A model generated the notes under the pieces. It was given only the letters and a program-made list of their open reading frames with translations, did not search any database and was not told the DNA's origin. Source: a virus. Taken from it: a DNA stretch of 36,302 nucleotides. The DNA is taken from positions 1 through 36,302 of IMG/VR virus record IMGVR_UViG_3300002835_000527, one strand, 5' to 3'. Position 1 is the first letter of the stretch. Each line of letters begins with the position of its first letter. Shown here piece by piece: positions 8,594 to 32,100 of the stretch. Position numbers and translations under genes: made by a program.

Positions 8594-9793
8594 TCACCAT
8601 TGGGATCGCCCATTTGGGGGGCGGCACGCATCGCCCCTGCCTTCCTTCTTCGCCCCTGCCGCCCTAGAAAAATCATCCTCGGTCACCAGCAAGTAACTCT
8701 GCTGTGCGATCCTAGGTGAGTTGCCAAGCCAGGAACAAACCACATGTAGAGGGAACTCGCGTTGGAGCTCGGTTTGACGACTAGCCCGCATCGAATGAAA
8801 CAATCGTGTCCAACCCGAGACGCCGGCGCGACGCAGTAAACGTGTCATTTCGGAGCGTAAGTTGGCATTCTTCCAACCCATCGCAGTGTTGGCTGCGGCT
8901 CGGTACTGGGGAGCCGCGACCACATAGTCGCTCTTGTCGCCGAAGATCTCGAAGGCTTCGTCGAGGATCGGACGCAGCTCCGGGAAGATCGGGCAACTCC
9001 GAATCCCACGACCTTCGTGGTGCTCGACCTTTGGCTCCGGGATGCTCATCCGGTTCAGCTCCCAATCGATGTCGTCCCAACGAAGCGATAGCGTTTCCGA
9101 GGGTGTGCGCAGCCCACCGTAGCGACTCAGGCCCAGGATCACTTGCCAGACGGGGTTGGCCTTCTTCATCAGCTTGTCGACCACTTCGCGAGGTACGAAC
9201 TCGTTGACCTTCACCGAACTCTTCTGCGTTTTTACTTTGCAGAACGGGTTCTCGTCGATAATCTTCCAGTCGACCGCATCGTGCATGAATTGCCGCGCAA
9301 ACTGGATCCGTTTGTGGATCGTGGTCGTGGCCATCCCTCGAGCTTTGAGCTTCTCGTGAAACTCTTTCGCATGGCCTGCGGTGATCTGGTTGATCCTGAT
9401 CCCCTCGGGCATGAACTCTTTGAGGTTCGCAACCACCTGCTTCCAAACCGCAACCGTGGCTGGTTTGCGGCTTGCCCCATGGCGCTCGATGTAGTCGTCT
9501 AGGAACTCTTCCATGGACATGCACCTGCGATCGATTTGGAGCTTCCCAGATGGAATCAAATCGAGCCGTTCGAGCTTCTCGCGGATCGTTGGCGATTCCG
9601 AGAGCCAACGTGCATCGTCGCGATCGATCGCGTTCCCAAGGATTCTGGCAGCCAGCATGCTTTCGACGCGTCGCTGCACTCCTTCGGCATCTCGCTCGGA
9701 AACTTTGCCGATATAGAGCACCCTTCGTTTGCGATTCTCATCGAAGTACAGGATCCGCCTGTTGCCTGATTTGTCGGTCGAAATAGAAGCCAT
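8594..9793 (-). CDS. Tyrosine recombinase / integrase
   Basis: The 399-residue product is an intact site-specific recombinase. It has an N-terminal arm-binding-like beta segment (NRRILYFDENRKRRVLYIGK), a SAM-like core-binding domain (~95-185) and the catalytic domain with Arg229 (GGLRTPSE), the His333-x-x-Arg336 box (HSMR), Trp355 (CSWLGNSP) and the tyrosine nucleophile Tyr367 (QQSYLLVTEDDF). It integrates or excises DNA between att sites. It reads outward at the left end of the phage-like element, with the excisionase-type gene 48 bases upstream on the same strand, a standard integration module. Two inactivated relatives lie to the left (342-411, 2121-2705). The attachment sites themselves could not be identified. 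Confidence 0.95.
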   Translation of the reverse strand: MASISTDKSGNRRILYFDENRKRRVLYIGKVSERDAEGVQRRVESMLAARILGNAIDRDDARWLSESPTIREKLERLDLIPSGKLQIDRRCMSMEEFLDDYIERHGASRKPATVAVWKQVVANLKEFMPEGIRINQITAGHAKEFHEKLKARGMATTTIHKRIQFARQFMHDAVDWKIIDENPFCKVKTQKSSVKVNEFVPREVVDKLMKKANPVWQVILGLSRYGGLRTPSETLSLRWDDIDWELNRMSIPEPKVEHHEGRGIRSCPIFPELRPILDEAFEIFGDKSDYVVAAPQYRAAANTAMGWKNANLRSEMTRLLRRAGVSGWTRLFHSMRASRQTELQREFPLHVVCSWLGNSPRIAQQSYLLVTEDDFSRAAGAKKEGRGDACRPPNGRSQW

Positions 9794-9841: not shown

Positions 9842-10063
9842 TCACCCTCGGCGGCCATTGGCTAGAGTGTCGTTCCCGATCAGTTTTCGCTCCAGGAACG
9901 CTTGGATGTCTGAAACGCGGTAGCGAATCAAACGTCCGAACTTCACATGCTGGAGTTCCCCTTTGGTGCGAAACTCGAAGACCATGCGCCGTGAAATGCC
10001 GAGCATTCGGGCGGCCTGTTCTTCGTCGACTACCATGGGTTCGATCCCCTTGAAAACACTCAT
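9842..10063 (-). CDS. Excisionase-type HTH (MerR-like) DNA-binding protein
   Basis: The 73-residue product is almost entirely one winged-helix module: VVDEEQAARMLGISRRMVFEFR, then HVKFGRLIRYRVSDIQAFLER. This is the helix-turn-helix family (HTH_17) of excisionases and small regulators. It binds DNA in the cytoplasm, and beside an integrase it most likely sets the direction of recombination or controls the integrase promoter. It lies 48 bases upstream of the integrase on the same strand and is probably cotranscribed. The start ATG (10061-10063) is preceded on the minus strand by GGATGGTGAGAA, a plausible ribosome site. Confidence 0.9.
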   Translation of the reverse strand: MSVFKGIEPMVVDEEQAARMLGISRRMVFEFRTKGELQHVKFGRLIRYRVSDIQAFLERKLIGNDTLANGRRG

Positions 10064-10213
10064 TTCTCACCATCCTTTGCGGTCATCATTCAATGATTTC
10101 GAAAGGGTGTGAGTCGCCAATGTCCGATGCACACAGGAGGCTCACTTACCCGGTAAAGTCCAGCGGCTCTTGGCAGCAATTCCCAAGCTTTTTCAGCTTT
10201 GCTGCCCAGGTTG

Positions 10214-10732
10214 TTAGTGGGCTCTCTGATCGAGCCCCAAAGATTCGAGGCAGTCGCGAATCGATGCCACATGCTTGTTGACGGTGTGCCAATTCATCTT
10301 CATGGTCTTGGCGATCTCGTTGATCGATTGGCCATCGGCGAGCGCATCGCTGATTTGCTGTTCGATCGGTGAGAGCAAAGTGCGAGCCTTTGCTAGATCG
10401 GCCAACATGCTGATGTGTGTGGCTTGGTCGACTCCGTACGAAGAGTCCACCACATGCCGAGGCATGTTTTCGCTGCCGGTGACGTGGTCGCTGTAACGGT
10501 TTCGGGTTCTTCGATACTGCCGAAGCTGTCGGTCGATCACTGCGGTGATGGCGGTTTGGCCAGAGGCACCGTTGGATTTCTCAGGGTTGAATTCGAAGTC
10601 CATGAGCACCAGCAAAATCTGCTGCTGCACGTCTTCGATGTCGTGTCTTTTGAATCCCATGCGTCTGGCACGGGAGGAAATCCATTTGGAGATGGTCTTT
10701 TCGGTCGGTTGTTTGCTAACTGTGATACACAT
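10214..10732 (-). CDS. Small sigma-70/ECF-like transcription factor
   Basis: The ~172-residue product has two sigma-like parts. The N-terminal half (RRMGFKRHDIEDVQQQILLVLMDF, then AVIDRQLRQYRRTRNR) resembles region 2, which binds core polymerase and the -10 site. The C-terminal half (LSPIEQQISDALADGQSINEIAKTMKMNWHTVNKHVASIR) is a region 4 HTH of the LuxR/sigma type. The start at 10732 is preceded on the minus strand by GAGGAATCGTC, a good ribosome site; a longer frame to 10777 lacks one. Its promoter must lie in the repeat-rich region 10733-11091, shared with the rightward operon. It may drive the element's own promoters, for example the repeated upstream elements of the 21-25 kb cluster; that link is inference. 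A non-sigma HTH regulator is an alternative. Confidence 0.7.
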   Translation of the reverse strand: MCITVSKQPTEKTISKWISSRARRMGFKRHDIEDVQQQILLVLMDFEFNPEKSNGASGQTAITAVIDRQLRQYRRTRNRYSDHVTGSENMPRHVVDSSYGVDQATHISMLADLAKARTLLSPIEQQISDALADGQSINEIAKTMKMNWHTVNKHVASIRDCLESLGLDQRAH

Positions 10733-10789
10733 GACGATTCCTCGATTGCTCGCGTGGTTGTTTCGATCGCGAGGCAATTGTTCGAGAAA

Positions 10790-10985
10790 TACAGGGTCAT
10801 GTATCTAGGGTCATACATGTAGTCTCAAAAGTCATATGGGACACATTACAGGGTCACGCCGGTCACATATGACCCCACGTGGGACACATTACAGGGTCAC
10901 GCCAGTCACATATGACCCCACGTGGGAGCAAATTACAGGGTCATGACTACATATATGACCCCACTTCCCACACATTACAGGGTCA
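10790..10985. repeat. Iteron/operator-like repeat array in a divergent control region
   Basis: Four copies of ATTACAGGGTCA start at 10845, 10888, 10932 and 10974 (spacing 43, 44 and 42), with a fifth partial copy ATACAGGGTCA near 10789 and a CTAGGGTCATAC at about 10805. Between the copies lie inverted counterparts (ATATGACCCC near 10868, 10911 and 10953), so GGGTCA and TGACCC alternate as inverted pairs. Two copies of the 10-base palindrome CCCACGTGGG lie at 10874-10883 and 10917-10926. The array separates the leftward sigma-like gene from the rightward replication operon, so it can act as an operator for both directions or as replication iterons. Confidence 0.85.
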
Positions 10986-11091
10986 GCGCACTCACCTGAC
11001 TTTTGATCGAAGCGCGCGAAGTAGAGGGTCGAGCGGCAAATAATTATATGGAGGCACAACGCTTCCACGTTTAACAACGCAGGAGTTTGCC

Positions 11092-11898
11092 ATGCATCAG
11101 TCCCCATCCATGTCGTTTCTGATCCACGAGTCAGCCGACGAGTACCACGCGAAAGCGAAGCACTATCTATCGAGCCATCAGTTGGCCGACTTTCGAAAAT
11201 GCCCTCAGCTCTACTATCGCAAGAAGTACCAACCACGCACCCAAGAAGAATCGCCGGCCTATTTGGTCGGACGCGCTGCCCATGTCCTGATCCTCGAAGG
11301 CCTCGAGCGATTCCGCGAAGACTTCGCTGTCGGCGGTCCCATCAATAAGAAAACAGGCCTGCCATTCGGGCCAGCCACCAAGGCCTGGACTCAGTGGGCC
11401 GAGACGGTCGGCAAACCCGTGCTGTCCGATTCGCAGTTCGAAACGATCGAGCGGATGAATGAATCGGTCGCAATGCACGAGGCGGCTGTTGATTTGCTGC
11501 AATACGGAATCGCCGAAGCGGTCGTGCGGGCCGAGTACTGCGGATTCCCCTGCCAGATCCGTATCGATTGGTTGGATCCGTCCCCGAGCATCGTGGACCT
11601 GAAAACCTGCGATGACTTGACCTGGTTCGAAGCCGACTCGCGGCGCTACGGGTACGCCCATCAATTGGCATTCTACCGAGCCGTGCTTAAGAAAGCCCTG
11701 GGGATCTATGTTCCCGTCCATCTGATCGCCGTGGAGAAGAAAGAACCCTACCGCTGCGGTGTTTGGCAACTCTCGAGCGAGGTTTTGAACCTCGCCCAAA
11801 AGGAAAACGAGCAGGCGATCGATCGCTTGCATGCGTGCACTGCGAACGATTCCTGGCCCACGGGCTACGAAGAGACTCGCGTCTTCGATTTTCTCTGA
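11092..11898 (+). CDS. PD-(D/E)XK exonuclease-like protein (RecE/DUF3799-like)
   Basis: The 268-residue product has a RecB/RecE-type nuclease core. The N-terminus LSSHQLADFRKCPQLYYRKKY is the usual 'S.s.l..f..CP..y' entry, AYLVGRAAHVLILEG carries the conserved GxxxH, and the metal site is Asp159 (RIDWL), Asp169 and Lys171 (VDLKT), followed by YAHQLAFYRAVL. In phages such proteins resect double-stranded ends or process DNA for single-strand annealing. It is the first gene of the rightward operon, followed by a Sak4-like ATPase and a DUF669 protein, a common recombination set. Start ATG 11092 has AGGAG at 11081-11085. The operator array lies upstream. Confidence 0.85.
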   Translation: MHQSPSMSFLIHESADEYHAKAKHYLSSHQLADFRKCPQLYYRKKYQPRTQEESPAYLVGRAAHVLILEGLERFREDFAVGGPINKKTGLPFGPATKAWTQWAETVGKPVLSDSQFETIERMNESVAMHEAAVDLLQYGIAEAVVRAEYCGFPCQIRIDWLDPSPSIVDLKTCDDLTWFEADSRRYGYAHQLAFYRAVLKKALGIYVPVHLIAVEKKEPYRCGVWQLSSEVLNLAQKENEQAIDRLHACTANDSWPTGYEETRVFDFL

Positions 11899-18546: not shown

Positions 18547-18885
18547 GCGCAAAATTTGGCCCAATAGACGCAATGCACTTGCGTGATTGCGGTCGAAGGC
18601 CAACAATACAACATCTCGCGTGTACGGGCCCTTTATGGGCCTCACGCGCGGTGTGCCAAACTGGCACTCACAACGATCTCTTGCATAGGTACTTCCGGCC
18701 TTTTTACCGTTACTGGGGGGCGTGGGAACGGTCACCAAGTTAGAGAGAGTTTGTTTTGTGCGTGGGAATCTTTAATTCCTCGCGATCATCCAACCCAGCG
18801 ACCCAACCAACCGAGCCAAACACACACCCAAAGACACATCGACAGAACCCTTTCCGTTTCGTTTCTCCCCTGGAAAGGCATGTTC
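18547..18885. other. Non-coding leader of the methyltransferase gene with two hairpins
   Basis: No gene seen; the open frame upstream of 18886 has no ribosome site and low-complexity content. CGCGTG (18617-18622) pairs with CACGCG (18643-18648), enclosing GGCCC (18627-18631) and GGGCC (18637-18641). Next to it GTGCCA (18653-18658) pairs with TGGCAC (18662-18667) around AAC. A CTGGGGGGCGTGG run follows at about 18713, and an A/C-rich tract (18790-18860) precedes the gene. It may be a structured 5' leader or attenuator. Confidence 0.55.
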
Positions 18886-20259
18886 ATGAAAATCGAACTT
18901 TGGTCGCTCGATCGCATTCGTCCGTATCCGAACAATCCCCGCATCAACGATGACGCTGTCGATGCCGTGGCTGCATCGATCCGTGAGTTTGGTGTTCGCC
19001 AAGCGATCGTTGTCGACACCGAAGGGGTAATCATCTGCGGGCACACCCGCTTCAAAGCTGCTCAGAAGCTTGGGCTCGACAAGCTCCCCGTCCACGTTGC
19101 CAAAGACCTCACTTCTGAGCAGATCAAGGCATATCGGATCGCCGACAACAAGACAGCCGAACTGGCCGATTGGAATTACGATCTGCTTCCGATCGAACTG
19201 GGGGACCTGCAAACCAACGGCTTCGATCTGTCTCTCCTTGGTTTCGACGAAGATGAATTGCTCAAGCTCCTCAAGACCGAGGTCGAAGAAGGTCTTACCG
19301 ATCCTGACGACGTGCCGGCACCACCCGATGCCGCAGTGACGCAACCTGGTGATCTCTGGATCTTGGGCAACCACCGATTGCTCTGCGGTGACTCATCGAA
19401 ACCCGAGGATCTCGATCGATTGCTCGGTGGCAAAACGATCCAATTGGTCAACACAGATCCGCCCTACAACGTGAAGGTGGAACCCCGATCGAACAACGCG
19501 ATCGCAGCGGGTTTGTCATCGTTTTCCAACGACAGCGCCTCGCAGAAACTCAAAGGGGGACAAGGCAACGCGGCATCGTTTGGGGTCGACCACGAGACCG
19601 GGAAACCCAAGCATCCACCGACGCACAAGAAGCTCCGAGCCAAGGATCGCCCCCTGGCCAACGACTTCGTGAGCGACGATGAGTTCGATCGATTGCTCGA
19701 TGCCTGGTTTGGAAACATCGCTCGGGTGCTCGACCCAGGTCGTGGTTTCTACATCTGGGGTGGGTATGCCAACTGCGGCAACTATCCCCCGTTCCTCAAG
19801 AAGCATGGTCTGTATTTCAGCCAAGCAATCATCTGGGACAAGATGCATCCAGTGCTGACCCGCAAAGACTACATGGGCGCGCACGAGTGGTGTTTTTACG
19901 GTTGGTTGGAAGGGGCGGCCCACGTGTACCTCGGGCCCAACAACGCTACCGACCTGTGGCAGATCAAGAAGGTCAATCCGCAGTCGATGGTCCACCTGAC
20001 TGAGAAGCCCGTCGAGCTTGCGGTCCGCGCGATGCAGTACTCGTCACGCCCCGGGGAGAACGTCCTCGATCTGTTTGGTGGGAGCGGATCTACCTTGATT
20101 GCTGCCGAGCAGACAGGTCGTAATGCGTTCTTGATGGAACTCGATCCGCTGTATGCCGATGTCATCGTGGATCGATACCAACGGTTCACAGGCAAGCCCG
20201 CAGTGCTGGAACGGACGGGCACGTCACCGATTCCGATGCGTGCTACGGATGCCAAGTAG
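18886..20259 (+). CDS. ParB/Srx-domain protein fused to beta-class DNA methyltransferase
   Basis: ATG 18886 has GGAAAGG at 18872-18878. The ~457-residue product opens with a ParB-like domain (IRPYPNNPRINDDAVDAVAASI, VVDTEGVIICGHTRFKAAQKLG; the GHTR box is the conserved GxxR site), then a linker and an adenine-N6/cytosine-N4 methyltransferase. The catalytic DPPYN is at 191-195 and the AdoMet-binding FGGSGS at 397-402, the order of the beta class. This ParB-methylase fusion is common in phages and mobile elements and usually lacks a cognate nuclease, as here, so it more likely protects or marks element DNA. It ends 2 bases before the convergent gene 20262-20582, with no room for a terminator. 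Confidence 0.92.
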   Translation: MKIELWSLDRIRPYPNNPRINDDAVDAVAASIREFGVRQAIVVDTEGVIICGHTRFKAAQKLGLDKLPVHVAKDLTSEQIKAYRIADNKTAELADWNYDLLPIELGDLQTNGFDLSLLGFDEDELLKLLKTEVEEGLTDPDDVPAPPDAAVTQPGDLWILGNHRLLCGDSSKPEDLDRLLGGKTIQLVNTDPPYNVKVEPRSNNAIAAGLSSFSNDSASQKLKGGQGNAASFGVDHETGKPKHPPTHKKLRAKDRPLANDFVSDDEFDRLLDAWFGNIARVLDPGRGFYIWGGYANCGNYPPFLKKHGLYFSQAIIWDKMHPVLTRKDYMGAHEWCFYGWLEGAAHVYLGPNNATDLWQIKKVNPQSMVHLTEKPVELAVRAMQYSSRPGENVLDLFGGSGSTLIAAEQTGRNAFLMELDPLYADVIVDRYQRFTGKPAVLERTGTSPIPMRATDAK

Positions 20260-20261
20260 CA

Positions 20262-20582
20262 TCACAGCTTGTGGCACCTCCAATGCCCGTCTTCGAAGAC
20301 GTAGAGATAGTTCGCATCGCAATCGCGAGCGAACTTCATAAGCGACCCACGGTCGAGCAGAAGCTTTGGGGGACGTGCCCGAGAAAAACACTCGGGCTCC
20401 CCATCGCTCGCATTCAAACATCGCAACTCTCCCCCGGCGATAAGCGCCGAAACTTTCTCGATGGAGTTATGCCGTTGGTTGAGAATCACCCCAGCATGTT
20501 CCGGGTAGCCATCGAAGTGCAGGTAGGCAGCATGGTAGCTCCCATCGTTGTCTGCATAAGCAATCGTTGCTCGTGTCGCCAT
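20262..20582 (-). CDS. Phage-type small protein of unknown function
   Basis: The 106-residue product starts MATRATIAYADNDGSYHAAYLHFDGYPEHAGVIL, a pattern I know from small phage proteins ('..R..i.....dG....iy.H.DGYp...G..L'). No function is established for these. The C-terminal half is rich in Cys and aromatic residues. The start ATG 20582 is preceded by AGGAGGACC on the minus strand, a strong ribosome site. It is the last gene of the leftward cluster (20262-24662) and ends 2 bases from the convergent methyltransferase stop. Confidence 0.75.
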   Translation of the reverse strand: MATRATIAYADNDGSYHAAYLHFDGYPEHAGVILNQRHNSIEKVSALIAGGELRCLNASDGEPECFSRARPPKLLLDRGSLMKFARDCDANYLYVFEDGHWRCHKL

Positions 20583-20594
20583 GGTTTGGTCCTC

Positions 20595-20813
20595 CTAGGA
20601 TTGAATGTTTGCGGTGGTAAGGATCTCAATCACATCGTCGGGCATCGAAAGCATCAGTTGCCGACCGTTGTCCCAATCGATTTCGATCTGTGTCCAACCA
20701 TGGTGTGGGTGGATCGCGCGAACGGTACCAAGCGATCCTGCGGGAATCGGATCTGGATCTTCGGGCATGTGAATCAATCGGATCCGATCTCCGACTGCGG
20801 GTATTGCGGTCAT
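20595..20813 (-). CDS. DUF4314 family protein
   Basis: The 72-residue product is a single small beta-barrel-like module: GDRIRLIHMPEDPDPIPAGSLGTVRAI, then QIEIDWDNGRQLMLSMPDDVIEIL. It matches the DUF4314 pattern 'G.rirl..M..Dp.pi..G..GtV..v......i.v.WDnGr.L.l'. These small proteins are carried by phages and conjugative elements; their molecular role is unknown. It lies 12 bases upstream of the next gene in the leftward cluster, so the two are probably cotranscribed. Confidence 0.85.
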   Translation of the reverse strand: MTAIPAVGDRIRLIHMPEDPDPIPAGSLGTVRAIHPHHGWTQIEIDWDNGRQLMLSMPDDVIEILTTANIQS

Positions 20814-20831
20814 CGTTGGCTTTCCTTGCGT

Positions 20832-21083
20832 TTAGAGAATCTTGCCAAGCATGCTGTTACGCATCGCGTCGAGTGCTTCGCAGGCGTAGAGGTGTTCGGT
20901 CAAAAGCGGGCCGGCCGTCTGTGGTTGCTGTGCGTCGGCGATCTCCAGCGCGTCGGCCAAGGTGCGAAGACCCTCGATCGCCTTGTAGTAGGCTTCGCGG
21001 ATCTCTTGGGCTTGGTGTGGATCCATCGTGCGGAAGGCGTCGCGGAGAATCTTTTCGTTTGCTTTTTTGTCTGCGGTGGTCAT
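20832..21083 (-). CDS. Small helical protein, unknown
   Basis: The 83-residue product appears fully helical and charged (KKANEKILRDAFRTMDPHQAQEIREAYYKAIEGLRTLADALEIAD). No domain is recognised. The start ATG 21083 has an A/G-rich stretch just upstream on the minus strand. It is 18 bases from the DUF4314 gene, within the leftward cluster. Confidence 0.65.
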   Translation of the reverse strand: MTTADKKANEKILRDAFRTMDPHQAQEIREAYYKAIEGLRTLADALEIADAQQPQTAGPLLTEHLYACEALDAMRNSMLGKIL

Positions 21084-21122
21084 GGTCGTGTTCCTTGTCG
21101 TGGTTGTCAGGGTTGTTGGCGG

Positions 21123-21416
21123 CTATTGGTTCTTGAGCAGGTATTGCAGCAGCTTCTGTTGTTCGTAGAGCTTGTTGAGTTCGGCCTTGGCTTCTTTGGC
21201 TTCGCGAAGATCTCCGTCGGCAAAATCCGTCCAGCTCAGGCTGCAGGGCTCGTCGTTCATCATCGCGGTTGCATCTTCTACGGCTCGTTGGGCTCGCCAA
21301 AGCATTTGTTCGGCGGCCTTGGCAACCCGCTTCTTGGCATCTGGAATCATCCAATCGAGCCGTTGCAGTTGGTTCTGGATCGCGTGGGCGGTTGGGTTGG
21401 TGGTCGTGTCGTTCAT
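21123..21416 (-). CDS. Small coiled-coil protein, unknown
   Basis: ATG 21416 follows CACGGAGAAGCGACG on the minus strand, the leader shared with several genes of this cluster, so the longer frame to 21566 is rejected: its extra residues encode the repeated upstream element. The ~97-residue product (AIQNQLQRLDWMIPDAKKRVAKAAEQMLWRAQRAVEDATAMM, then AKAELNKLYEQQKLLQYLL) has heptad-like hydrophobic spacing typical of a coiled coil. No family was recognised. Confidence 0.65.
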   Translation of the reverse strand: MNDTTTNPTAHAIQNQLQRLDWMIPDAKKRVAKAAEQMLWRAQRAVEDATAMMNDEPCSLSWTDFADGDLREAKEAKAELNKLYEQQKLLQYLLKNQ

Positions 21417-21450
21417 CGTCGCTTCTCCGTGTTTGCGTTGGGGTTTTTGT

Positions 21451-21563
21451 TTGGCGTTACGACACAGTTCCCATGCTTTGGGAAGAACATCAAGCCGATG
21501 TGGAAAGTAATGTTTCGGAATCTGCAAGAATGTTTTCGAGCCCCACAAACGCCACCGCTTGGC
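21451..21563 (-). promoter_or_regulatory. Repeated upstream element, copy A
   Basis: On the minus strand this carries GGTGGCGTTTGTGGGG, GAAAACATTC, CGGCTTGATG, AAAGCATGGG and TGTGTCG, blocks shared in order with copies B (23088-23180), C (23543-23600) and D (24712-24829). It ends ~45 bases before ATG 21416. It is probably a promoter or 5'-leader module. Confidence 0.6.
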
Positions 21564-21611
21564 CACCGTTGCGTCGCATTCCGCGTTGGCATAACTAGGC
21601 CATCCGACGAC

Positions 21612-21641
21612 AAAACGCCCACACGTGCCAAACGTGGGGCG
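21612..21641 (-). terminator. Intrinsic terminator
   Basis: CGCCC-A-CACGT (21616-21626) pairs with ACGTG-GGGCG (21632-21641), one bulged A and a 5-base loop GCCAA. On the minus strand the stem is followed by TTTTG (21611-21615). It lies ~20 bases after the stop of the leftward gene at 21663. Confidence 0.75.
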
Positions 21642-21662
21642 CTGGTTGGAAGTAAGGCACGG

Positions 21663-21902
21663 TTAGCGCCGGAGCCAATTCCGAATCGTCTTGAGTTCAA
21701 ACCGATCGAAACCCGATACGGCATAGTCCTGGCCGTTGTGTCCTCGGGCGATCAAACGGTCCCCACGGCGCTCGACGTACTCGACCGTGGTGTCGAGCGA
21801 TGGGTCGTCCTCGGATTGGACTTGGTACGAATAGTCGCGTTCGGGATACGCTCGCTGGCCATCGGCCAAGTCGGTGACCAAATGGATTTGTCCGATGTGC
21901 AT
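21663..21902 (-). CDS. Small beta-type protein, unknown
   Basis: ATG 21902 lies one base after the stop of the upstream gene (TGACATG), so it is preferred over a longer frame to 21950. The ~79-residue product (QIHLVTDLADGQRAYPERDYSYQVQ, VEYVERRGDRLIARGHNGQDYAVSGFDRFEL) looks like a small beta barrel with a helical tail. No family was recognised. It is the last gene of a three-gene unit with 21904-22092 and 22089-22634, and a terminator follows. Confidence 0.65.
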   Translation of the reverse strand: MHIGQIHLVTDLADGQRAYPERDYSYQVQSEDDPSLDTTVEYVERRGDRLIARGHNGQDYAVSGFDRFELKTIRNWLRR

Positions 21903-21903
21903 G

Positions 21904-22092
21904 TCAGTTCCCCGCATGGGATTCGTGTTGGATTGGTAAAGGGGGATCAAGCTCTTCGGCGATCAAGAGAAAGATCTCGGAGAGTTGGTTGGCATCGATC
22001 GAATCGACCTTGCCCGTTTGAAAAGCCTCTTCGAGTCGCAGAGCGACCTTTCGCATCGCGTCTGCGACTCGGTAGTTGGGATCCGAGTTCAC
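21904..22092 (-). CDS. Very small helical protein, unknown
   Basis: The 62-residue product (MNSDPNYRVADAMRKVALRLEEAFQTGKVDSIDANQLSEIFLLIAEELDPP) is helical with an acidic C-terminal half. Start ATG 22092 overlaps the stop of the HARE-HTH gene (ATGA), so translation is coupled. It is the only gene of the cluster outside the shared reading-frame register (see findings). Confidence 0.65.
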   Translation of the reverse strand: MNSDPNYRVADAMRKVALRLEEAFQTGKVDSIDANQLSEIFLLIAEELDPPLPIQHESHAGN

Positions 22093-22634
22093 TGGGCCAC
22101 CTCGGCGTTGGCGCTAGCGGCTACGAATCGGCCCCGCTCGGTCTTTACGAATCGCGAGGTCTCGCCCTTGGCAAGCTCTCGGAGGATCGCGCTGTAGAGA
22201 GTCGCATGGGGTGTCTTGCCACCAGGGCTTGTCCAGTACCCCTTGCTGGTCATCGCCTCGATCATCTGCTGGACGTTGAGCGGCTCGGTTGCCTCACACA
22301 AAACCTTGTGGGCGGCAGCCAAGGCACTCATTCGCTTCGGTTGATCTCCGTCGGCCTTCTTAGCGACTCGCTTGGGTTTGATCGGAACTACGTCGGCGGC
22401 TGTATCGACCGGTTCTGCGTTGACCGTTTCGCTTTGCGTTTTCGCAGCCGTCTTGCTTTTGCCAACCTCGCCCTGCAATCGCTGAGCGCTTTTGACGTGG
22501 ATCTTCTTGCCGGTTGCGAGGTTCGTTGCGTTCCAACCACCGCTGGCTTTCTCGCTATCGATCTGAACCTCGACCTTCTTGCCGGTGACGTTCGCATAGT
22601 ACTTGCCACCGATCTTGACCTCTGCCTTCTTCAT
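22089..22634 (-). CDS. HARE-HTH domain protein
   Basis: ATG 22634 follows GGGAGACAGGCGA, so the longer frame to 22673 is not used. The ~181-residue product has a small N-terminal module (VKIGGKYYANVTGKKVEVQID ... TGKKIHVKSAQRL), a Lys/Ala/Thr-rich linker and a C-terminal HARE-HTH winged helix (MSALAAAHKVLCEATEPLNVQQMIEAM, WTSPGGKTPHATLYSAILREL, ETSRFVKTERGRFVA). HARE-HTH occurs in restriction enzymes, RNA polymerase delta and chromatin proteins, and has been proposed to sense DNA modification. Its presence beside a DNA methyltransferase is suggestive. It starts a three-gene overlapping unit. Confidence 0.8.
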   Translation of the reverse strand: MKKAEVKIGGKYYANVTGKKVEVQIDSEKASGGWNATNLATGKKIHVKSAQRLQGEVGKSKTAAKTQSETVNAEPVDTAADVVPIKPKRVAKKADGDQPKRMSALAAAHKVLCEATEPLNVQQMIEAMTSKGYWTSPGGKTPHATLYSAILRELAKGETSRFVKTERGRFVAASANAEVAQ

Positions 22635-22724
22635 TCGCCTGTCTCCCGTATTGGAACCGTGGTTAGCTGCCATCGTCAGGCCGCTCGCACAACCGAGCGA
22701 CGATCCCGCGTGCGGGATTTCGGC

Positions 22725-23051
22725 TTACGATCCCCAAACCAAGTCGGCCAACCCGCATCCGAGGAAATCAACCACCACCTGGATCTCTGTGGTCGCGGCC
22801 GGTACGTCCAACCCGCGGTCGAAGTTGAAAAGGGTCTTCTTGGTCTTGATCTCTTGGATCCAAAGCTTCGAGATCTTGGTACGTCCGAGTTCGTACTCTT
22901 CGCTCTCGGCGTGTTCGGCGAAGACCAGGGCGTCGAATCGAACCGTGTCGTTGATCGTGCCTCGGACCCAAGCGCCACCGCAGGAGGTTCGCTTTTCGAT
23001 CTTGGTGATCACCAGGTCGAGGTCTGTTACGTCGATCTTTTCGTTGGCCAT
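22725..23051 (-). CDS. Small beta-rich protein, unknown
   Basis: ATG 23051 follows CACGGAGAAACAAAG, the leader typical of this cluster. The 108-residue product (VTDLDLVITKIEKRTSCGGAWVRGTINDTVRFDALVFAEHA, YELGRTKISKLWIQEIKTKKTLFNFDRGLD, IQVVVDFLGCGLADLVWG) looks like a compact beta protein. No family is recognised. Repeated element B lies just upstream. It is separated from the HARE-HTH gene by ~90 bases without a clear terminator. Confidence 0.7.
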   Translation of the reverse strand: MANEKIDVTDLDLVITKIEKRTSCGGAWVRGTINDTVRFDALVFAEHAESEEYELGRTKISKLWIQEIKTKKTLFNFDRGLDVPAATTEIQVVVDFLGCGLADLVWGS

Positions 23052-23087
23052 CTTTGTTTCTCCGTGTTGGAAAGGGTGGTGCTTCGT

Positions 23088-23180
23088 TTGGCGTTAACAC
23101 ACATGAGCCATGCGGTTTGCAACACAGCAAGCAGGATTCGCATTCATTTCCAAAAATGTTTTCATGTTTCCCAAACATGC
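23088..23180 (-). promoter_or_regulatory. Repeated upstream element, copy B
   Basis: On the minus strand: GGGAAACATGAAAACATTT, AATGCGAATCCTGC, CAAACCGCATGGCTCATGTG and GTTAACGCCAA. It shares the AACCGCATGGCTC and GAAAACAT blocks with copies C, D and A, and ends ~40-50 bases before ATG 23051. Confidence 0.65.
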
Positions 23181-23210
23181 GAAAAAGCTCACCCATTTCT
23201 GGGCGAGCTT
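23181..23210 (-). terminator. Intrinsic terminator
   Basis: AAGCTC-A-CCC (23185-23194) pairs with GGG-C-GAGCTT (23201-23210) with one A-C mismatch and a 6-base loop. On the minus strand the stem runs straight into GAGCTTTTTCG. It lies ~20 bases after the stop of the gene at 23229, so it ends that transcript. Confidence 0.85.
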
Positions 23211-23228
23211 CGCGGAACATGCACATGT

Positions 23229-23501
23229 TTAGTTGTTGCCGGCGACGTCCCAAGCTCGCTTGGTTCCGTACCCGAGCTGCTGGCCTTCGACGATGTAGAG
23301 AACCGAATCTTCGGTCGCATCGTCGTCATCATCCCCATCCTCGTCGTCCTCATCGAAGTCGTTGATCTCGGCCCCCGATGCCAAACCGCAGATGGTGTTT
23401 TCGAATGGCCAATTCTGCTGGGTCATCAGGCGAACCTCAGCATCACCACCGATCTCGTCGCGGTAGTCTTCGAGGCGTGCAATCAATTCGTCGATCGTCA
23501 T
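23229..23501 (-). CDS. Small acidic phage-type protein
   Basis: ATG 23501 follows the cluster leader ACGGGAGAAACAAAC; the longer frame to 23765 is non-coding element C. The 90-residue product opens MTIDELIARLEDYRDEIGGDAEVRLMTQQNWPFENTI, a pattern I know from small phage proteins ('eLi..Le.....D.eVr...q..wP.ey.i..v'). A long Asp/Glu run and a short C-terminal segment YIVEGQQLGYG follow. The function is unknown. It is followed by a good terminator (23181-23210). Confidence 0.75.
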   Translation of the reverse strand: MTIDELIARLEDYRDEIGGDAEVRLMTQQNWPFENTICGLASGAEINDFDEDDEDGDDDDDATEDSVLYIVEGQQLGYGTKRAWDVAGNN

Positions 23502-23542
23502 GTTTGTTTCTCCCGTCTGTTTGAAAATAGATGTCCAACGAA

Positions 23543-23600
23543 CGTCCCAACACAGGAGCCATGCGGTTGGAAAAGCATCAAGCCGATTTCCGAAGCATTC
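23543..23600 (-). promoter_or_regulatory. Repeated upstream element, copy C
   Basis: On the minus strand: GGAAATCGGCTTGATGC, TTTTCCAACCGCATGGC and TCCTGTGTTGGGACG, the clearest copy of the CGGCTTGATG and AACCGCATGGCTC blocks. It ends ~45 bases before ATG 23501. Confidence 0.7.
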
Positions 23601-23757
23601 AGAAGCAATTGCCGAGATTGTTTTGCATCGCACCAAATCAACGACGTTCGCACCGGTCGCCATGCATTGCATGCGTGGGGGATTACTAAGCCATATCCGA
23701 GAAAGGCGTTTTGTGGGGCACTGTCGCGACCGGTTCCCATGAATCGTTCCAGTAATG

Positions 23758-23789
23758 GACAACACCGCCCGGGTGTTGGCGGTGTTGTC
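23758..23789 (-). terminator. Strong hairpin after the amidoligase gene
   Basis: GACAACACCGCC (23758-23769) and GGCGGTGTTGTC (23778-23789) form a perfect 12-bp stem with an 8-base loop, 15 bases past the stop of the leftward amidoligase gene. There is no T-run after it on the minus strand, so it may stabilise the 3' end or terminate with help. Confidence 0.65.
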
Positions 23790-23804
23790 TATGGCTGGTC
23801 GGCT

Positions 23805-24662
23805 CTAGGCGGCTTGGTCGTACTTCTTGGCCATCTCGAGGAGTTTGTTCTTGATCGTCTTCCATTCGCGGTTGGTCTCGCCGGTGATCTCGCCGAAGAT
23901 CTTGTTGCGAAGCTCACCCTTGTACCAACCTTTGGTCCAACCCAATCGGTAGAAGAGGCGGTTGAGTTCTGTCTCGCCGAACCCGGCTCCGGGTCGATCC
24001 CAGCAGCTCTTGGTTCCATCTTTCTTGGTGTAGTCCCAATCCGCGCATCGTTTGGTATTCATCGCCAGCTCTGCCAACCCCAGGACCATCATCAGGTATC
24101 CGACCACTTTGGTCTTGTTGAGCGTTCCGGCGAAGGCCCGGAATTCGATTCGGTTCTTGCCTGCTGCAAGGTGCGTAAGGTTCAGCAGGTGGTAGCGATC
24201 CGCTTCGCATCGGTTCTTAGCGGCATCCTTGTCCCCGTATTGTTTGATCCGTTTGGTGTAGACCGTTTGTTCGCGTCGTCGGCTGCCGGTGCTTGCGAAG
24301 ATCGCTTTCTCATGGTTGCCGACCAGGGAAATCAATCTGGCCAAGGCGGCTGCGTCGCCGTTCCATTCGATCGTTATGTGCAGCCCGCAGCTTGCGTTGA
24401 CCCGTGCTCCGTGTTCGTTGATCTTGTCGATCGCGTCTTCGATTTGTTTGAGGCCTTCGTATCCCTTGAGCTTGGGGCTTACGAATTCGCATCCCTTGCG
24501 GTTGGGTGCCTCTGGTTTGATGCTCGCGTCGCGTTCTGCTCGCCATCCGGTGGGGAGCCAAGGTACTTGGTATCCGTGGTGGTATGGTCCGATCGGTGTG
24601 GTGTCGCTGTTTGGCAGGGTGGTCTCGAATTCGATTCCGAAAGCGATCTCGTTAGCGTTCAT
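23805..24662 (-). CDS. Amidoligase-family enzyme (ATP-grasp-like/COOH-NH2 ligase)
   Basis: ATG 24662 follows AACGGAGAGACAAAG; the longer frame to 24731 covers repeated element D. The ~285-residue product matches amidoligases: N-terminal FGIEFETTL, then RAERDASIKPEA, GCEFVSPKLKGYEGLKQIEDAIDKIN, VNASCGLHITIEW (a His-containing core), RYHLLNLTHLA and NRIEFRAFAGTLN. Members form amide bonds, and most cellular substrates are unknown; several are encoded on phages or beside peptide genes and may modify proteins or cell-wall peptides. Here the gene is the first of the leftward cluster, divergent from 24938. A hairpin follows its stop. Confidence 0.85.
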   Translation of the reverse strand: MNANEIAFGIEFETTLPNSDTTPIGPYHHGYQVPWLPTGWRAERDASIKPEAPNRKGCEFVSPKLKGYEGLKQIEDAIDKINEHGARVNASCGLHITIEWNGDAAALARLISLVGNHEKAIFASTGSRRREQTVYTKRIKQYGDKDAAKNRCEADRYHLLNLTHLAAGKNRIEFRAFAGTLNKTKVVGYLMMVLGLAELAMNTKRCADWDYTKKDGTKSCWDRPGAGFGETELNRLFYRLGWTKGWYKGELRNKIFGEITGETNREWKTIKNKLLEMAKKYDQAA

Positions 24663-24711
24663 CTTTGTCTCTCCGTTTGGGTTGGGTGGGTCGGTCGTTT
24701 GCAATCGCCAT

Positions 24712-24829
24712 TGCGTTTGCGTGTGACACATTCAGCCCTGCGGTTTGAAACACATCCAGCCGATAAAGCATGTTTTTCCCAGTCTTTTTGCATGTTTTCC
24801 GGTATCCCAACAAACGCCACGGTTGGCGA
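24712..24829 (-). promoter_or_regulatory. Repeated upstream element, copy D
   Basis: On the minus strand: ACCGTGGCGTTTGTTGGG, CGGAAAACATGC, TATCGGCTGGATGTG, TTTCAAACCGCAGGGC and TGTGTCACACGC. It shares the GGCGTTTGT block with copy A and the AACCGCA block with B and C. It lies ~60 bases before the amidoligase start and overlaps the divergent promoter region of gene 24938. Confidence 0.65.
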
Positions 24830-24937
24830 CGTGTGGGGTTCAAAACGCATGTGCCCAAGGGGCCGAACATCGAAACAAGTCGCGCCGGTGGGGCCCGTGT
24901 TGGCCACGGTGCGAAACCTTTATGAAGGGAGCCTGGC

Positions 24938-25144
24938 ATGAGCAGCGGAAAGAGTCCGATCGACCCGAATCGACTTTCTGTCGAACAAGCGGCAAAACTC
25001 CTCTCGGCAGCAGCCAAGATTCGCATTCCTGAACAGCAGATCGCAGATGACCTTGCCTCCGGTGCGCCCCAAAACAAGGACGGAACGATCAGCCTCGTAG
25101 CCTATGCAGCCTGGATGCTCAAGGAGATGTCTCGTGGCGAGTGA
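24938..25144 (+). CDS. Small protein, unknown, first of a rightward pair
   Basis: ATG 24938 has GGGAG at 24927-24931. The 68-residue product (IDPNRLSVEQAAKLLSAAAKIRIPEQQIADDLASGAPQNKDGTISLVAYAAWMLKEM) is helical. The LSVEQAAKLLS segment recalls an HTH/packaging-type small subunit, but this is only a resemblance. It is divergent from the amidoligase gene and overlaps the next gene by reading frames in the stretch around GTG 25134. Confidence 0.6.
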   Translation: MSSGKSPIDPNRLSVEQAAKLLSAAAKIRIPEQQIADDLASGAPQNKDGTISLVAYAAWMLKEMSRGE

Positions 25145-26148: not shown

Positions 26149-29100
26149 ATGCAAGGCCGTAACCATCGAATGGTAGCGAAATCACGCGAGAATCGTCATC
26201 GTCGATCGGAATGGCGAAAACTTATTCTGGAGCCCCTCGAAGATCGAAGGTTACTTGCGACGGTCAGTGTCACAACATTCGCTGATAACAACGACAGCGA
26301 AATAGTCTCGGATCCCACCTACAATATTAGCTGGCTGGCGTTCAACAAGGGGCCTGACGGGCAGGTAAGCCTTCGAGAAGCAATCATAGCCGCGAACAAT
26401 ACATCTGGTCTGGATACAATCAACTTCGCGATACCAACGAGCGGTGGCGGGGACGAGGGCGGTGGAATCGGAGTTGGCATCGGAGTTGGTGGAGGCGGGG
26501 GAGGATCCGCGACTTGGTCTATCATCATGGTGGGATCGTCCGGGCTGGGTGCGCTCCCTGTTTTGACGAGCCCAGTAATCATTAATGGATATTCGCAATC
26601 GGGCGCATCGGCAAACACGAGCACGACATCAAGTAATGCAACGATCTTGATTGGGCTTGATGGAACTAGCGCTGGGCTCAGCGCGAGTGGACTGACGTTG
26701 GGTAGTGGAAGTAGCGGGAGCTCGATCCGGGGCCTTGGAATCCAAAAATTTGGAACATCGGGCGTTTTTGTTGGCAGCTCGAGCAACACCATCGCTGGTA
26801 ACTTCATCGGATTGACGAACGCCGGGACGGTATCGTCTCCTAACGGTGTCGGCATTAGCGTAATCGGTGGCAGCAGCAACACGATCGGTGGTGTTTCCGC
26901 AGCGGACCGAAACCTCGTCTCAGGAAATACTGGAGCTGGGATCTCGCTCCAAATATCCTCGAACTCGAACGTGGTCTTAGGCAATTTCATAGGACTAAGT
27001 GCATCGGGATTAGTCAGCATCGGGAATTCGGTAGGTATTTCCATCGAGAATTCGAGTTTCAATACGATTGGAGGAACGATCTTAGCGAGCCAGAACACGA
27101 TCTCCAGTAATTTGAATGAAGGGATCACGATTGCAGGTCCATCAATCGGAAACGCCATTCAAGGAAACGCGATTTACGGTAATGCCAAACTGGGCATCGA
27201 TCTCATTGCACCAAATGACCCTCCTTCAGGCGTAACCCCCAATGACGACTTGCTCACATCAGGGAATCCCAACCTATCGATCGACACCCCCGTCATCTCA
27301 ACGATTTCATTGAACAACGGAATTGCCACACTCACCGGCTATGTTGGGGCGACTCAGGCAAGCGGAGCATCGATCTTTGCAAACGCGAGAGTCGAATTCT
27401 TCTTGAGCGACAATAGTTCCACGAATGGCAGTGGAAAACGCTACGTCGGCTTTCTCACAGCAAACGCGTCCGGTGCGTTTGTCGGCAATATCGACTTGAA
27501 CGACTACATCACGGTTTACGTAGGAACCGAAACTTTGACTGCTACCGCGACAAACGCTACAGGAAACACTTCGGAGTTCGCGGTCAACAAGCCGATCCTA
27601 CCCCTATTCGTCGCCGTCGTCGACCAAGCCATTGCGACTGAGGCTGGTGGTGTCAACAATGGGACCGCAGGGACGAACCCGACTGGCAATGTACTCACCA
27701 ACGATACCGGGTCGGGCAACACGGTCATCGGCGTGGCAGCCGGGCTGGTGAGTAACCCCAACGGTGGGGTCGGCACAACGTTAACCGGTGCCTACGGTTC
27801 TATTAATATCGCGTCAAACGGACAGTTTACATACACGGTCAACAACGCTCTTTCGGCCGTACAGGCGTTGCGCAACACATCCACGACCGTATCAGACGTC
27901 TTTTCCTACACAGCTCGGAATTCATCGAATGCTACGGCGTCATCCCAAATAACCGTCGTCATCCAGGGCGCGAACGATACACCCACGATCATCAGCGACG
28001 GCGGAGATTCGCAGACCAACGTCACCACTTACGAGTCGACCACCTATGTCACGACCGTGGTGGCAGCAGACGTCGACGCCAATTCTTCGATCACGTACAC
28101 GATCACTGGGGGTGCCGATGCGATTAAGTTTGCGATCACCAATACCGGTGTCTTGTCCTTCATTACGGCACCTGACTTCGAAGCGCCGACGGACGTAGGT
28201 GCCAACAACATTTACAACCTGAATGTCCAAGCAAGCGATGGAACACTTACAACAACGCAATCCATCGCCGTCCTGGTTCTCAATGCACTCGAGTCCGTCG
28301 GAACCGACACGTATGGTGGGATCTATATCGACGATGGAAGCGATGGATTTACTACGACGGGAACCTGGACACAAACAGGAAACGGTTGGCAATCCGATGT
28401 TCGGACGGTACCAGCAGCAAGCGGCTCCACTGCGACTTGGACATTCACCGTACCGGCAGGTATTTATAATGTCTCTGCGCACTGGCGAACGCAGAACTAT
28501 GGCGCAACCAACGCCCAATTCAATGTTGCGGGCACGACGGTGTCGGTGGATCAGAGCGTCGCGCCAAATGATTTCTATTCCTCTGGGATCAACTGGAAAC
28601 GCCTTGCGAACTTCACATCGACTGGAACCGCGGTCAATATTACACTCAGTGGGTTGGCCGGATCGGTGGGAAACCTAGTTGCAGACGCAATTCGGCTAGA
28701 AGGCGTTACGAGCACTCTGGCACCTGAGTCAAACGAAACGATATCGACGGCATCCACCATCACGTTTGTTCCTGGAGTTCCAGCATCGGTGGGTAATTAC
28801 CTCGGGGATGGTTCCAATGGCGAGAAGGATGTTGACTTCTACAAAGTAAATCTCGCGGCCAGCCAGAGTATCGATATTCAGGCGGAAGCACTCGCTTCGG
28901 AGTTTATCTCAGACCGCAGTACACTTCAGTCCCGCATTCGCGTTTTCAATGCGACTGGGACGCAGCTCTTTACCGCTGCATCGTCAGGAGGAGTGGATCC
29001 ATCGGTCTCATTTCAGGCGACGACTGCAGGTTTCTACTACATCGGGATCTCGTCTGCTGAGAACGCGAGCTACAGCCCAACATCTCTGACCGGCCGAGTG

Positions 29101-32100
29101 AACAACAGTACTTTTGGGAGTTACCGACTCCACGTGCTCGCTCCCCTTGTTCCACCGACCACAACCTATAACCAAACCTACACGGTGGACACCGTTTCCG
29201 ATGTGGTCAATACGACGACCATGTCCCTGCGGCGAGCGATCAATAATGCACAGGCTGCAGGCGGTTCCAACCTGATTGTTTTCTCACCAACTATCACTCA
29301 ACCAGTATTGCTGGACAGCGGATTACCCAGCATCACCGGCAACATTACGATTCGGGGTGCGGCCTCGGGAGCGTTAACCGTGATCAGCCCGAATCCCAGT
29401 GCGTCGTCGAAGCTTCTCTTCACGGTTGCTTCTACTGGTGTGCTTCGGCTTGAGAATATGGTACTCCAGGGTGCCTACTCAACCACCGCAAACGGCTCGT
29501 CTGCCAACGTGAGTGGGCAACTGTGGTTGGATCGATCCGAAATCCGTAACAGCCAATCGAATCTCGGTGGAGCGATCTATGCCGGAGGCACTGGCTCCAT
29601 CGTCATGGTGGACTCAACCATTTCAGATAGCACGGCGACCCGTGGGGGAGGTATCTATTTGGCGTCCACGAGCGAGCTGACTGCCATCAATAGCACCTTT
29701 TCGCAAAATGACGCGAGCCTCACAGGGGACGCGATTTCGAACTACGGCACGGGTGCCGTTTCGCTGTTCAGTTCGACGGTGGCAAGAAACGGGCTTCCGT
29801 CAACCAACACCTCCGAAACACTCCAAAACCTAACGTCCGGTCGTTTCGTTCTTCGCAATTCGCTTGTGGTTGACAATCGTTCGATTGCCGACACGTCCGG
29901 CACTTTCATTTCCCATGGCTTCAACGTAATCGGAAATGCACGATCTGCGGTTGGATTGTTGACGATGAGTTACCTGCGCGACCAAGTCGGAGGGCAAAGC
30001 CTGGCGCCCGTCCTGTGGGGAGCGGTAGGCCAGCTCTCCCATCAAGGCGGCCGCACACGGTCGGTGATGCCCGTTGCAACCAGTCCCGCAATCGATCGGG
30101 GAAGCAGTTACGGCAGAAGAACAACCGACCAACGCGGAGCCGACCGGTTCCTCGACGGTCCCGATCTAGGAAGCTTGTCTGACACGCAAAAGCAAGTAGA
30201 CATCGGTGCTACCGAGTTCGGTACCTACTTCGTCAACGTAACGAACGACGCCCTGGACACCTCACCAACCACCACGGATGGAATTGTCGACACGGATCCG
30301 ACGGCAACCGGTTCCCAGGTGTCGCTGCGCGCTGCGGTCAAAGAACTGAGTAATCTTGCTGGCTGGACTGGCGTCTTGGAACAGTCCACGCTGAACAAGA
30401 TGGAAGGTATCGTCCGTTTCGAACCGACCATTGCAGAAGTTGTTCTCAGCAACTCAGGAAACAACGAGCAAAACTCGCAAACGGGAGATTTGGACGTCTG
30501 GGGAAACATCAGGGTCTTGGGCAACGACACGCCGACGGTAATCACTGCGAATTGGATGGTGTCCAATTCACAGACGGGCCCTCAGTACTTTGCTTTGAAC
30601 GATCGGGCATTTCAAGTTGGACCGAATTCCACGTTGACACTTGAAAAGGTAAAGCTCGCAGGCTTCCGAAGTCCCGACGGCACGACTCTTGATGGCGGGA
30701 ATGGTGGTGCGATTTTCAACGACGGTGGTACCGTTACGCTCAAGCAATCGGAGATTTTCTACCCTTATCTCAACTCATCGATATGGAGTGGAAAGAATTC
30801 AGCGGTTCGCGGAGGAGCGATCTATACCCAGAACGGTCGCGTTGAGGTTTTCGGATCCAAGATTTCCTTGAACTCTGCAGTGGATGGCGGTGCCATTTAT
30901 GTTCAATCCGGAGAATTGCTTGTCGATCAGCAGTCGACTATTGAGGACAACTCGGCAGTCGGGAGAGGTGGTGCGATCTATGCCAACCCGAGCACGATCA
31001 CGATCGATGGGCAAAGCATCATCCGCCGTAATCTTGCAGACATTGCGGGCGGATCTTTACACCTAAATTCGGGTGTAACGACGACCATTCAAGGCGCGTC
31101 GCAGATCGATTCCAACGCTGGTTACTCCCAAGTACTCGCATCCGGGGTCGCCACCAAAGGACTCGCGATCTACAACCTTGGCACCCTGACCATGCGAGGG
31201 AACTCAACGCTCTCGAATCACACAATCTATGGAGAAAGTGCCCTGTACAACAATGGAACGGCAACACTCGACAATGTAGTTCTATCCAACAACATCGACA
31301 CGGCCGGTTCGAGCGTAATCCGGAACGACTATGCAGGAAAACTCACGTTCTCTCACAGCACCTACTCGAACAATGGAGGGACGGCCACCAACGCAGGAGG
31401 CTTAGTCAATGAAAACGGTTGGGTTCGAATCGACGATGTTCAATTCCAAAACAATACCATATCAGCCGCAAACGGCGGGCTCATCACCAATCGCGGCGTG
31501 AATGCCGATATGGCAATCAGCAATTCTCGCTTCGACCATAATCATCCTGGCATCGAACCTGGGGCTCCCGTTCTCTACAACCAGTCGGGAAATCTGAAGC
31601 TCGATGGCTCGAGAATCGAATACACGTCGAACACGGCAGGATTCTATGCGACCTCGACAGCGATTCGGAACTTGGGAGTGCATGAGTTCATCGAGAAGTC
31701 CGAGTTGAGCGTGCTGCCCATCGCTGCGGACATTGATCCCAACCAAACCGAGATTTTCGTCCATAGCTATGCGGCCATTGAGTCGCTGCCACTTCCTGTG
31801 AGACTATTGATCGGTGATGAGGTTGTCAAAGTCACCGCCTTGAATCGGTTTCAAACGTCGCTCACCGTCGAACGCACCAAACCGGTCTCGCATCCAAGGA
31901 CATCCTCTGTCAAGATTTATATCGACCACGTTCAAAACCGTATCTCGGTGGGAGATCCTGTCAAGTTCGCAAAGTACAACTTGCCCTTCGACATTCTGAT
32001 CGACAACGAGATCATGACCGTCACGAAGATCGAGGGGGCAGTCCTCCATGTGATTCGTGGGCGAAACCTTACCCGTGCATCAGAGCACCAGTACCCATTT

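Follow-up and report, generated by a model that had tools for sequence, protein, structure and literature searches.

An intergenic repeat array in a planctomycete prophage is very probably a regulatory switch, with a sigma-like protein as candidate binder

What is the function of an array of short repeats lying between two divergent operons of a planctomycete prophage? The lysogeny/lysis decision in phages of Planctomycetes is little known. A sequence-only reading of this DNA had proposed a genetic switch or a set of replication iterons, bound by a sigma-like or an excisionase-type protein. Comparison with related elements indicates that they very probably form the regulatory switch of the prophage, an array of protein-binding sites placed between two opposite promoters.

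The window, the whole stretch of 36,302 nucleotides analysed here, is a 36.3-kb IMG/VR virus contig (IMGVR_UViG_3300002835_000527). Its left part is host-like (DUF1559, C39 peptidase, PIN), and the phage-like part starts at a tyrosine integrase gene (int; 8594–9793, − strand; Phage_int_SAM_5 1.7e-12, Phage_integrase 3.8e-6, PHROG integrase 8.4e-31). A 391-kb contig of a Pirellula MAG matches the window with 96.6% identity over 10.5 kb, host-side sequence included. The element is therefore a provirus of a Pirellula-like host. The leftward operon is sequentially composed of the gene of a 172-aa sigma-like protein with a predicted ECF sigma fold, the candidate binder discussed below (10214–10732, −; PHROG sigma factor 8.1e-13; TIGR02937 1e-6), the gene of a 73-aa excisionase-like HTH_17 protein (xis; 9842–10063, −; HTH_17 2.3e-11) and int as the final gene. 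The rightward operon opens with a RecE/exonuclease VIII-like nuclease (exo; 11092–11898, +; DUF3799 4.9e-34; PHROG 5.8e-53) and continues with Sak4, SSB, RusA, helicase and primase. Neither a CI nor a Cro homologue turned up in the part of the window between int and exo.

The intergenic region contains four exact copies of ATTACAGGGTCA at 10845–10856, 10888–10899, 10932–10943 and 10974–10985, with start spacings of 43, 44 and 42 bp. Each holds an exact class-1 site TTACAGGGTCA on the + strand (10846–10856, 10889–10899, 10933–10943 and 10975–10985), the last being the array copy nearest to the rightward promoter box. These four are the only exact TTACAGGGTCA matches in the 36.3-kb record, and every one lies inside the intergenic array. 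A one-mismatch copy occupies 10789–10799. Matches with two mismatches outside the array are at chance level in this record, which is possibly incomplete. Three inverted class-1 cores, reading TGACCC on the + strand, are located at 10870–10875, 10913–10918 and 10956–10961 (−), and two class-2 palindromes CCCACGTGGG at 10874–10883 and 10917–10926. In addition, an inverted pair flanks the array, with a left arm TCAAAAGTCA (10825–10834) and a right arm TGACTTTTGA (10997–11006). The arrangement of ATTACAGGGTCA, TGACCC and CCCACGTGGG between divergent operons is thus real and sits where it had first been noticed. Repeated 7-mers number 84 in the intergenic region, compared with 10.5 ± 3.7 in dinucleotide shuffles (Z = 19.8), which excludes a chance origin of the array. 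The 43-bp period emphasised by the sequence-only reading is present in the window, but it does not persist across the family. Most of the regularity stems from a 43-bp unit duplicated in tandem at 10837–10922 (10837–10879 and 10880–10922, 98% identical).

Two promoter-like elements flank the array. On the left, a −10-like hexamer TAGATA (10802–10807, −) is embedded in the conserved sequence GTATCTAG (10801–10808 on the + strand) and is kept across the family. A 17-bp spacer separates it from a −35-like TTTTGA (10825–10830, −). The one-mismatch class-1 site ATACAGGGTCA (10789–10799, +) lies 1 nt from the −10-like box, approximately at the expected transcription start. A short class-1 core GGGTCA (10808–10813, +) overlaps the putative leftward promoter and is not kept in the related loci L035, L040 and L055. 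On the right, the element consists of TAGAGG, 17 bp containing GAGCGGCAAATAAT, and TATATG (11022–11050, +), and its box is also kept in relatives. Divergent relatives retain both flanking boxes, the left-hand GTATCTAG and the right-hand GAGCGGCAAATAAC..TATATGG, while the letters of the array change. A scan for sigma-70 promoter and terminator consensus sequences gave no matches, so the promoter assignment rests on comparative conservation. From their conservation and position, we infer that the boxes are the −10 regions of two promoters, one facing leftward and the other rightward. The functional unit appears to extend from 10789 to about 11050 and to include these two elements, which the sequence-only reading had left unmarked.

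Scans that used the exonuclease and the sigma-like protein as queries yielded 244 loci, and about 1,590 planctomycete genomes contributed 54 more. Removal of duplicates left 44 divergent exo-linked regions and about 90 distinct upstream regions overall, derived from planctomycete prophages and metagenomic viruses with homologous sigma-like genes. In some loci the sigma-like gene diverges from exo, as in the window; in others it lies directly upstream of exo in the same orientation, and a few loci contain both arrangements. Most relatives share the position of the array in the intergenic region, and its sequence is lineage-specific. The word TTACAGGGTCA is kept in the close relatives L046, L047 and L054. 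Its lineage counterparts are TTACTAGGTCA in L040, TTACTCGGTCA in L114 and TTACTGGGTCA in L055, and remoter relatives carry GGGGACA, GGTGACA, GGCTCA or GGTGCCA. A search of related elements thus found the motif or its lineage counterpart recurring beside homologous genes, and the proposal of a functional array therefore holds as far as conservation is concerned.

Some relatives depart from the gene arrangement of the window. Two sigma-like paralogues are transcribed divergently from the array in L066, L075/L108/L179 and L205, a topology like that of cI and cro. In L075 (672–1403, −), an excisionase-like HTH domain is fused to the C terminus of the sigma-like protein.

The distribution of the array bears on the iteron proposal, according to which it is the origin of the phage and a replication initiator binds there. 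Its direct repeats do adjoin the recombination/replication operon. However, a repeat excess of Z > 3 over shuffles is found in 35 of the 44 unique divergent loci but in just 16 of the 84 regions that precede a co-oriented sigma-like gene, so that co-oriented loci with the same exo/helicase genes mostly lack an array. Moreover, the sites are locked to the promoter element, the GC skew of the window does not turn at 10.9 kb, and no Rep-type initiator was found among the early genes searched. The array accompanies the divergent sigma-like gene rather than exo and the replication genes, and a role as replication iterons is very unlikely. The other half of the initial proposal, a genetic switch, is supported by an operator-type array that the divergent operons of a temperate element flank, with counterparts beside homologous genes.

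Two classes of site recur in the family: short asymmetric sites (class 1) and palindromes (class 2) with CATATG or CACGTG at their centre. Both boxes were recognised in 49 loci, and in 36 of these a class-1 word ends 1–2 nt before the −10-like box of the leftward side, compared with 0.67 expected by shuffling. The word at this position has a single orientation throughout, and the reverse is never seen. The count is somewhat circular because the word list was built from the same loci; this objection does not extend to the constant spacing and orientation. In an independent test, the 12-mer abutting the leftward box matched its own array better than the arrays of other phages (p = 1e-4). The sites thus abut the putative promoter on the leftward side. 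Distances from the rightward box to the nearest class-1 site cluster at 17–19, 28–29 and 44–46 nt, and such variation is more easily reconciled with a regulator site than with a single fixed −35 element. Perfect 10-bp palindromes, mostly with CATATG or CACGTG centres, number 61 in the 49 arrays, compared with 12.6 after shuffling. The 92 class-1 spacings display no significant 10–11 bp periodicity. The idea that the bound proteins line up on one face of the helix, drawn from the 43-bp period, is accordingly not supported.

Which protein binds the class-1 sites? The AlphaFold model of the sigma-like protein (pLDDT 82) gives full-length, two-domain matches, sigma2 plus a sigma4-type HTH, to ECF sigma factors; families that the structure search did not return were not counted as absent. 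The sequence matches are weak. The protein scores below curated cut-offs (TIGR02937, 28.5 bits vs 42.9; TIGR02989, 22 vs 124.55), and its HTH is equally close to LuxR/GerE-type domains and to sigma region 4. A tblastn search of 50,697 phage records returned no relative. The literature searched likewise contained no described relative of this regulator and nothing direct on a sigma-like phage repressor or on planctomycete prophage operators.

The class-1 type covaries with this protein. With the N-terminal domain controlled, the type correlates with the HTH domain (partial r 0.198, p 0.001, n = 61), and it correlates with the recognition helix (0.157, p 0.003, n = 61). The N-terminal domain is also correlated (partial r 0.111, p 0.011). 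In a ranking of 132 columns, H149 and N147, located at the start of the recognition helix, take ranks 2 and 3, and T150 takes rank 9; hand-completed classes give a similar result, and the top scores of exo control columns are similar to those of the sigma-like columns. Helices of the form W-H-T-x-x-K-H pair with TTACAGGGTCA, and GGCTCA accompanies SRY/TRY helices in five of seven loci. The first covariation tests, on 26–36 loci, were weak and partly inconsistent, linking the class-1 site with the N-terminal domain and the array with exo. The class-1 classes were defined after the arrays had been inspected. Given these post-hoc classes, the N-terminal signal, the inconsistent first tests and the exo controls, the covariation is suggestive at most. 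It nevertheless makes the sigma-like protein the favoured candidate binder of class-1 sites, as a suggestion from sequence comparison.

Class 2 behaves differently. L094, L095 and L249, in which exo is absent, contain class-1 sites and a recognition helix like those of the window, and their class-2 sites are replaced. Since class 2 is exchanged without a change in class 1 or the helix, one binder does not explain all sites. When class-1 words are masked, the correlation between array and HTH domain is similar, weak and non-significant (r 0.126, p 0.078), and class 2 is therefore not assignable.

These observations lend some weight to an alternative with an unchanged operator array and switch, in which the sigma-like protein is a true alternative sigma factor and the class-1 and class-2 sites are read by another repressor, either a late-region phage protein or a host factor. 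The two-domain ECF sigma fold predicted over the full length, the independence of class 2 from the recognition helix, and a moderate covariation to which linkage contributes all fit this alternative. Yet the sigma-like gene is the neighbour that tracks the array; Sak4, SSB, RusA, helicase and Xis do not. The varied distances between class-1 sites and the rightward box also leave no fixed −35 position. We regard the alternative as rather unlikely, though to be taken seriously.

The excisionase-like protein had been named as the other candidate binder, and the array could accordingly represent recombination accessory sites, the Xis/Int arm sites of an attachment region. The genes xis and int do sit in the leftward operon, and Apl of phage 186 doubles as excisionase and switch regulator (PMC7498355). 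However, Xis and the array are doubly dissociated: L046 keeps the array with a 48% identical Xis, and L111 has a different array with a 77% identical Xis. In addition, the host boundary lies at the 3′ end of int, about 2.2 kb from the array, and the array spacings range from 9 to 140 bp with no 10–11 bp rhythm, in contrast to the 10–11 bp of Apl/RDF sites. Thus the excisionase does not hold as the binder, and arm sites are a very unlikely explanation.

The array is under constraint and is exchanged as a module. Between the window and L046, the array DNA is 86% identical and the sigma-like coding sequence 69%. In the complete chromosome of strain syqfu, a 290-bp operator region is identical in L183 and L185/L187, and the flanking coding DNA of these prophages is 87–95% identical. 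The array is thus more conserved than flanking coding DNA, which argues against a non-functional local duplication, that is, tandem repeats generated by slippage. A recent 43-bp duplication is indeed seen, but position, orientation and promoter-box spacing are kept across divergent phages, and slippage is hardly credible as the whole explanation. The comparison with L040 reveals the reverse distribution of identity, with 95% for exo DNA and 92% for the rightward promoter region, and 42% for the array and 57% for the sigma-like gene. This pattern corresponds to a cassette exchange of the type known for phage immunity regions. Sak4, SSB, RusA and helicase are 77–98% identical across the window, L040 and L095/L249, and the arrays differ.

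The syqfu chromosome (CP087563.1) contains at least eight related prophages or remnants (L128, L137, L142, L170, L183, L185, L186 and L187), three of which share the identical operator region. Co-resident prophages with an equal operator type occur in this chromosome and in the Pirellula MAG, whose binning may be imperfect. Equal operator types in co-resident prophages make strict superinfection immunity doubtful.

Taken in this light, the array would be the operator array of an early divergent switch of the lysis/lysogeny type, with class-1 sites bound by the adjacent sigma-like protein, a reading that we consider somewhat more probable than not. The ECF-sigma-fold protein would bind the asymmetric class-1 sites, TTACAGGGTCA in the window, through its sigma4-type helix-turn-helix. 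Its site in the leftward start region would mediate autoregulation, in the simplest form autorepression by blocking RNA polymerase. Class-1 copies nearer the rightward promoter may repress or tune the lytic early operon. The class-2 palindromes in between, with CANNTG-type centres, may be read by another regulator or used in another mode of binding. The arrays and their regulator would diversify jointly, as immunity specificities do. The ECF sigma fold looks intact and hints at RNA polymerase binding, which counts against simple repression.

A broader proposal, which we put forward only tentatively, is that an ECF-sigma-fold protein replaced the CI-type repressor as lysogeny/immunity regulator in a large clade of planctomycete prophages, with operator arrays that split into many specificity groups, at least five class-1 types among them, and are exchanged together with the regulator as a cassette. 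If the sigma-like protein binds these sites, a sigma factor has been turned into a phage switch regulator. The natural regulator–operator variants would then constitute a data set on the evolution of DNA-binding specificity, and might provide a tool to control prophages in Planctomycetes.

Several known systems resemble this locus. The divergent-promoter switches of the temperate phages lambda (OR/OL), TP901-1, phi11 and phi13 also place several operators between a regulator gene on the leftward side and an early operon on the rightward side, and their regulator–operator specificity is swapped as a module (PMC8516035, PMC3991615). In contrast to those switches, the candidate regulator here has a predicted ECF sigma fold instead of a CI/Cro-type repressor fold, and the class-1 sites are asymmetric. 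The repressor/stoperator system of cluster A mycobacteriophages (L5, TipsytheTRex) shares short asymmetric sites with an orientation fixed to transcription, and a small two-domain HTH regulator whose specificity diversifies between phages (PMC9283540). However, cluster A phages contain more than twenty sites genome-wide, and the second domain of their repressor is without structural homologues (PMC9283540), whereas every exact site of the window falls within a single intergenic array and both domains of its protein look sigma-like. Phage 186 Apl and P2 Cox also involve directly repeated sites between early promoters, near xis/int functions; the Apl sites are 6 bp long, spaced by 10–11 bp, bound by the excisionase and located between face-to-face promoters (PMC7498355). 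The array of the window differs in its irregular spacing and in that Xis does not track it. ECF sigma-70 factors, including phage-borne ones (PHROG 1740; TIGR02937/TIGR02989), share the sigma2 plus sigma4 architecture; the sigma-like protein differs from them in scoring below the curated cut-offs and in its equally LuxR/GerE-like HTH. A multi-site array adjoining the gene is, to our knowledge, an unusual arrangement for ECF promoters. Judged from sequence, the array most likely works like a phage divergent switch, with a sigma-fold candidate regulator.

The window displays further features outside the array. Between the sigma-like gene and xis lies a non-coding stretch with strong conservation (10109–10164, −), which reads GGTAAGTGAGCCTCCTGTGTG..TCGG..CTCAC and contains a GTGAG(CC)/(GG)CTCAC hairpin, with a folding z of −2.3 in L040 and just −0.65 in the window. 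The sequence TTACCGGGTAA at 10146–10156 was considered as an extra operator and rejected because its two left-hand bases vary in relatives. An N6/N4 DNA methylase with a fused ParB_N domain is encoded at 18583–20259 (+), and a 3384-codon open frame (26149–36300, +) runs past the contig end. A type II hammerhead ribozyme (RF02276; 22661–22725, −) scores 43.5 bits, above the gathering score, and is antisense to a 1556-aa ORF at 20271–24941.
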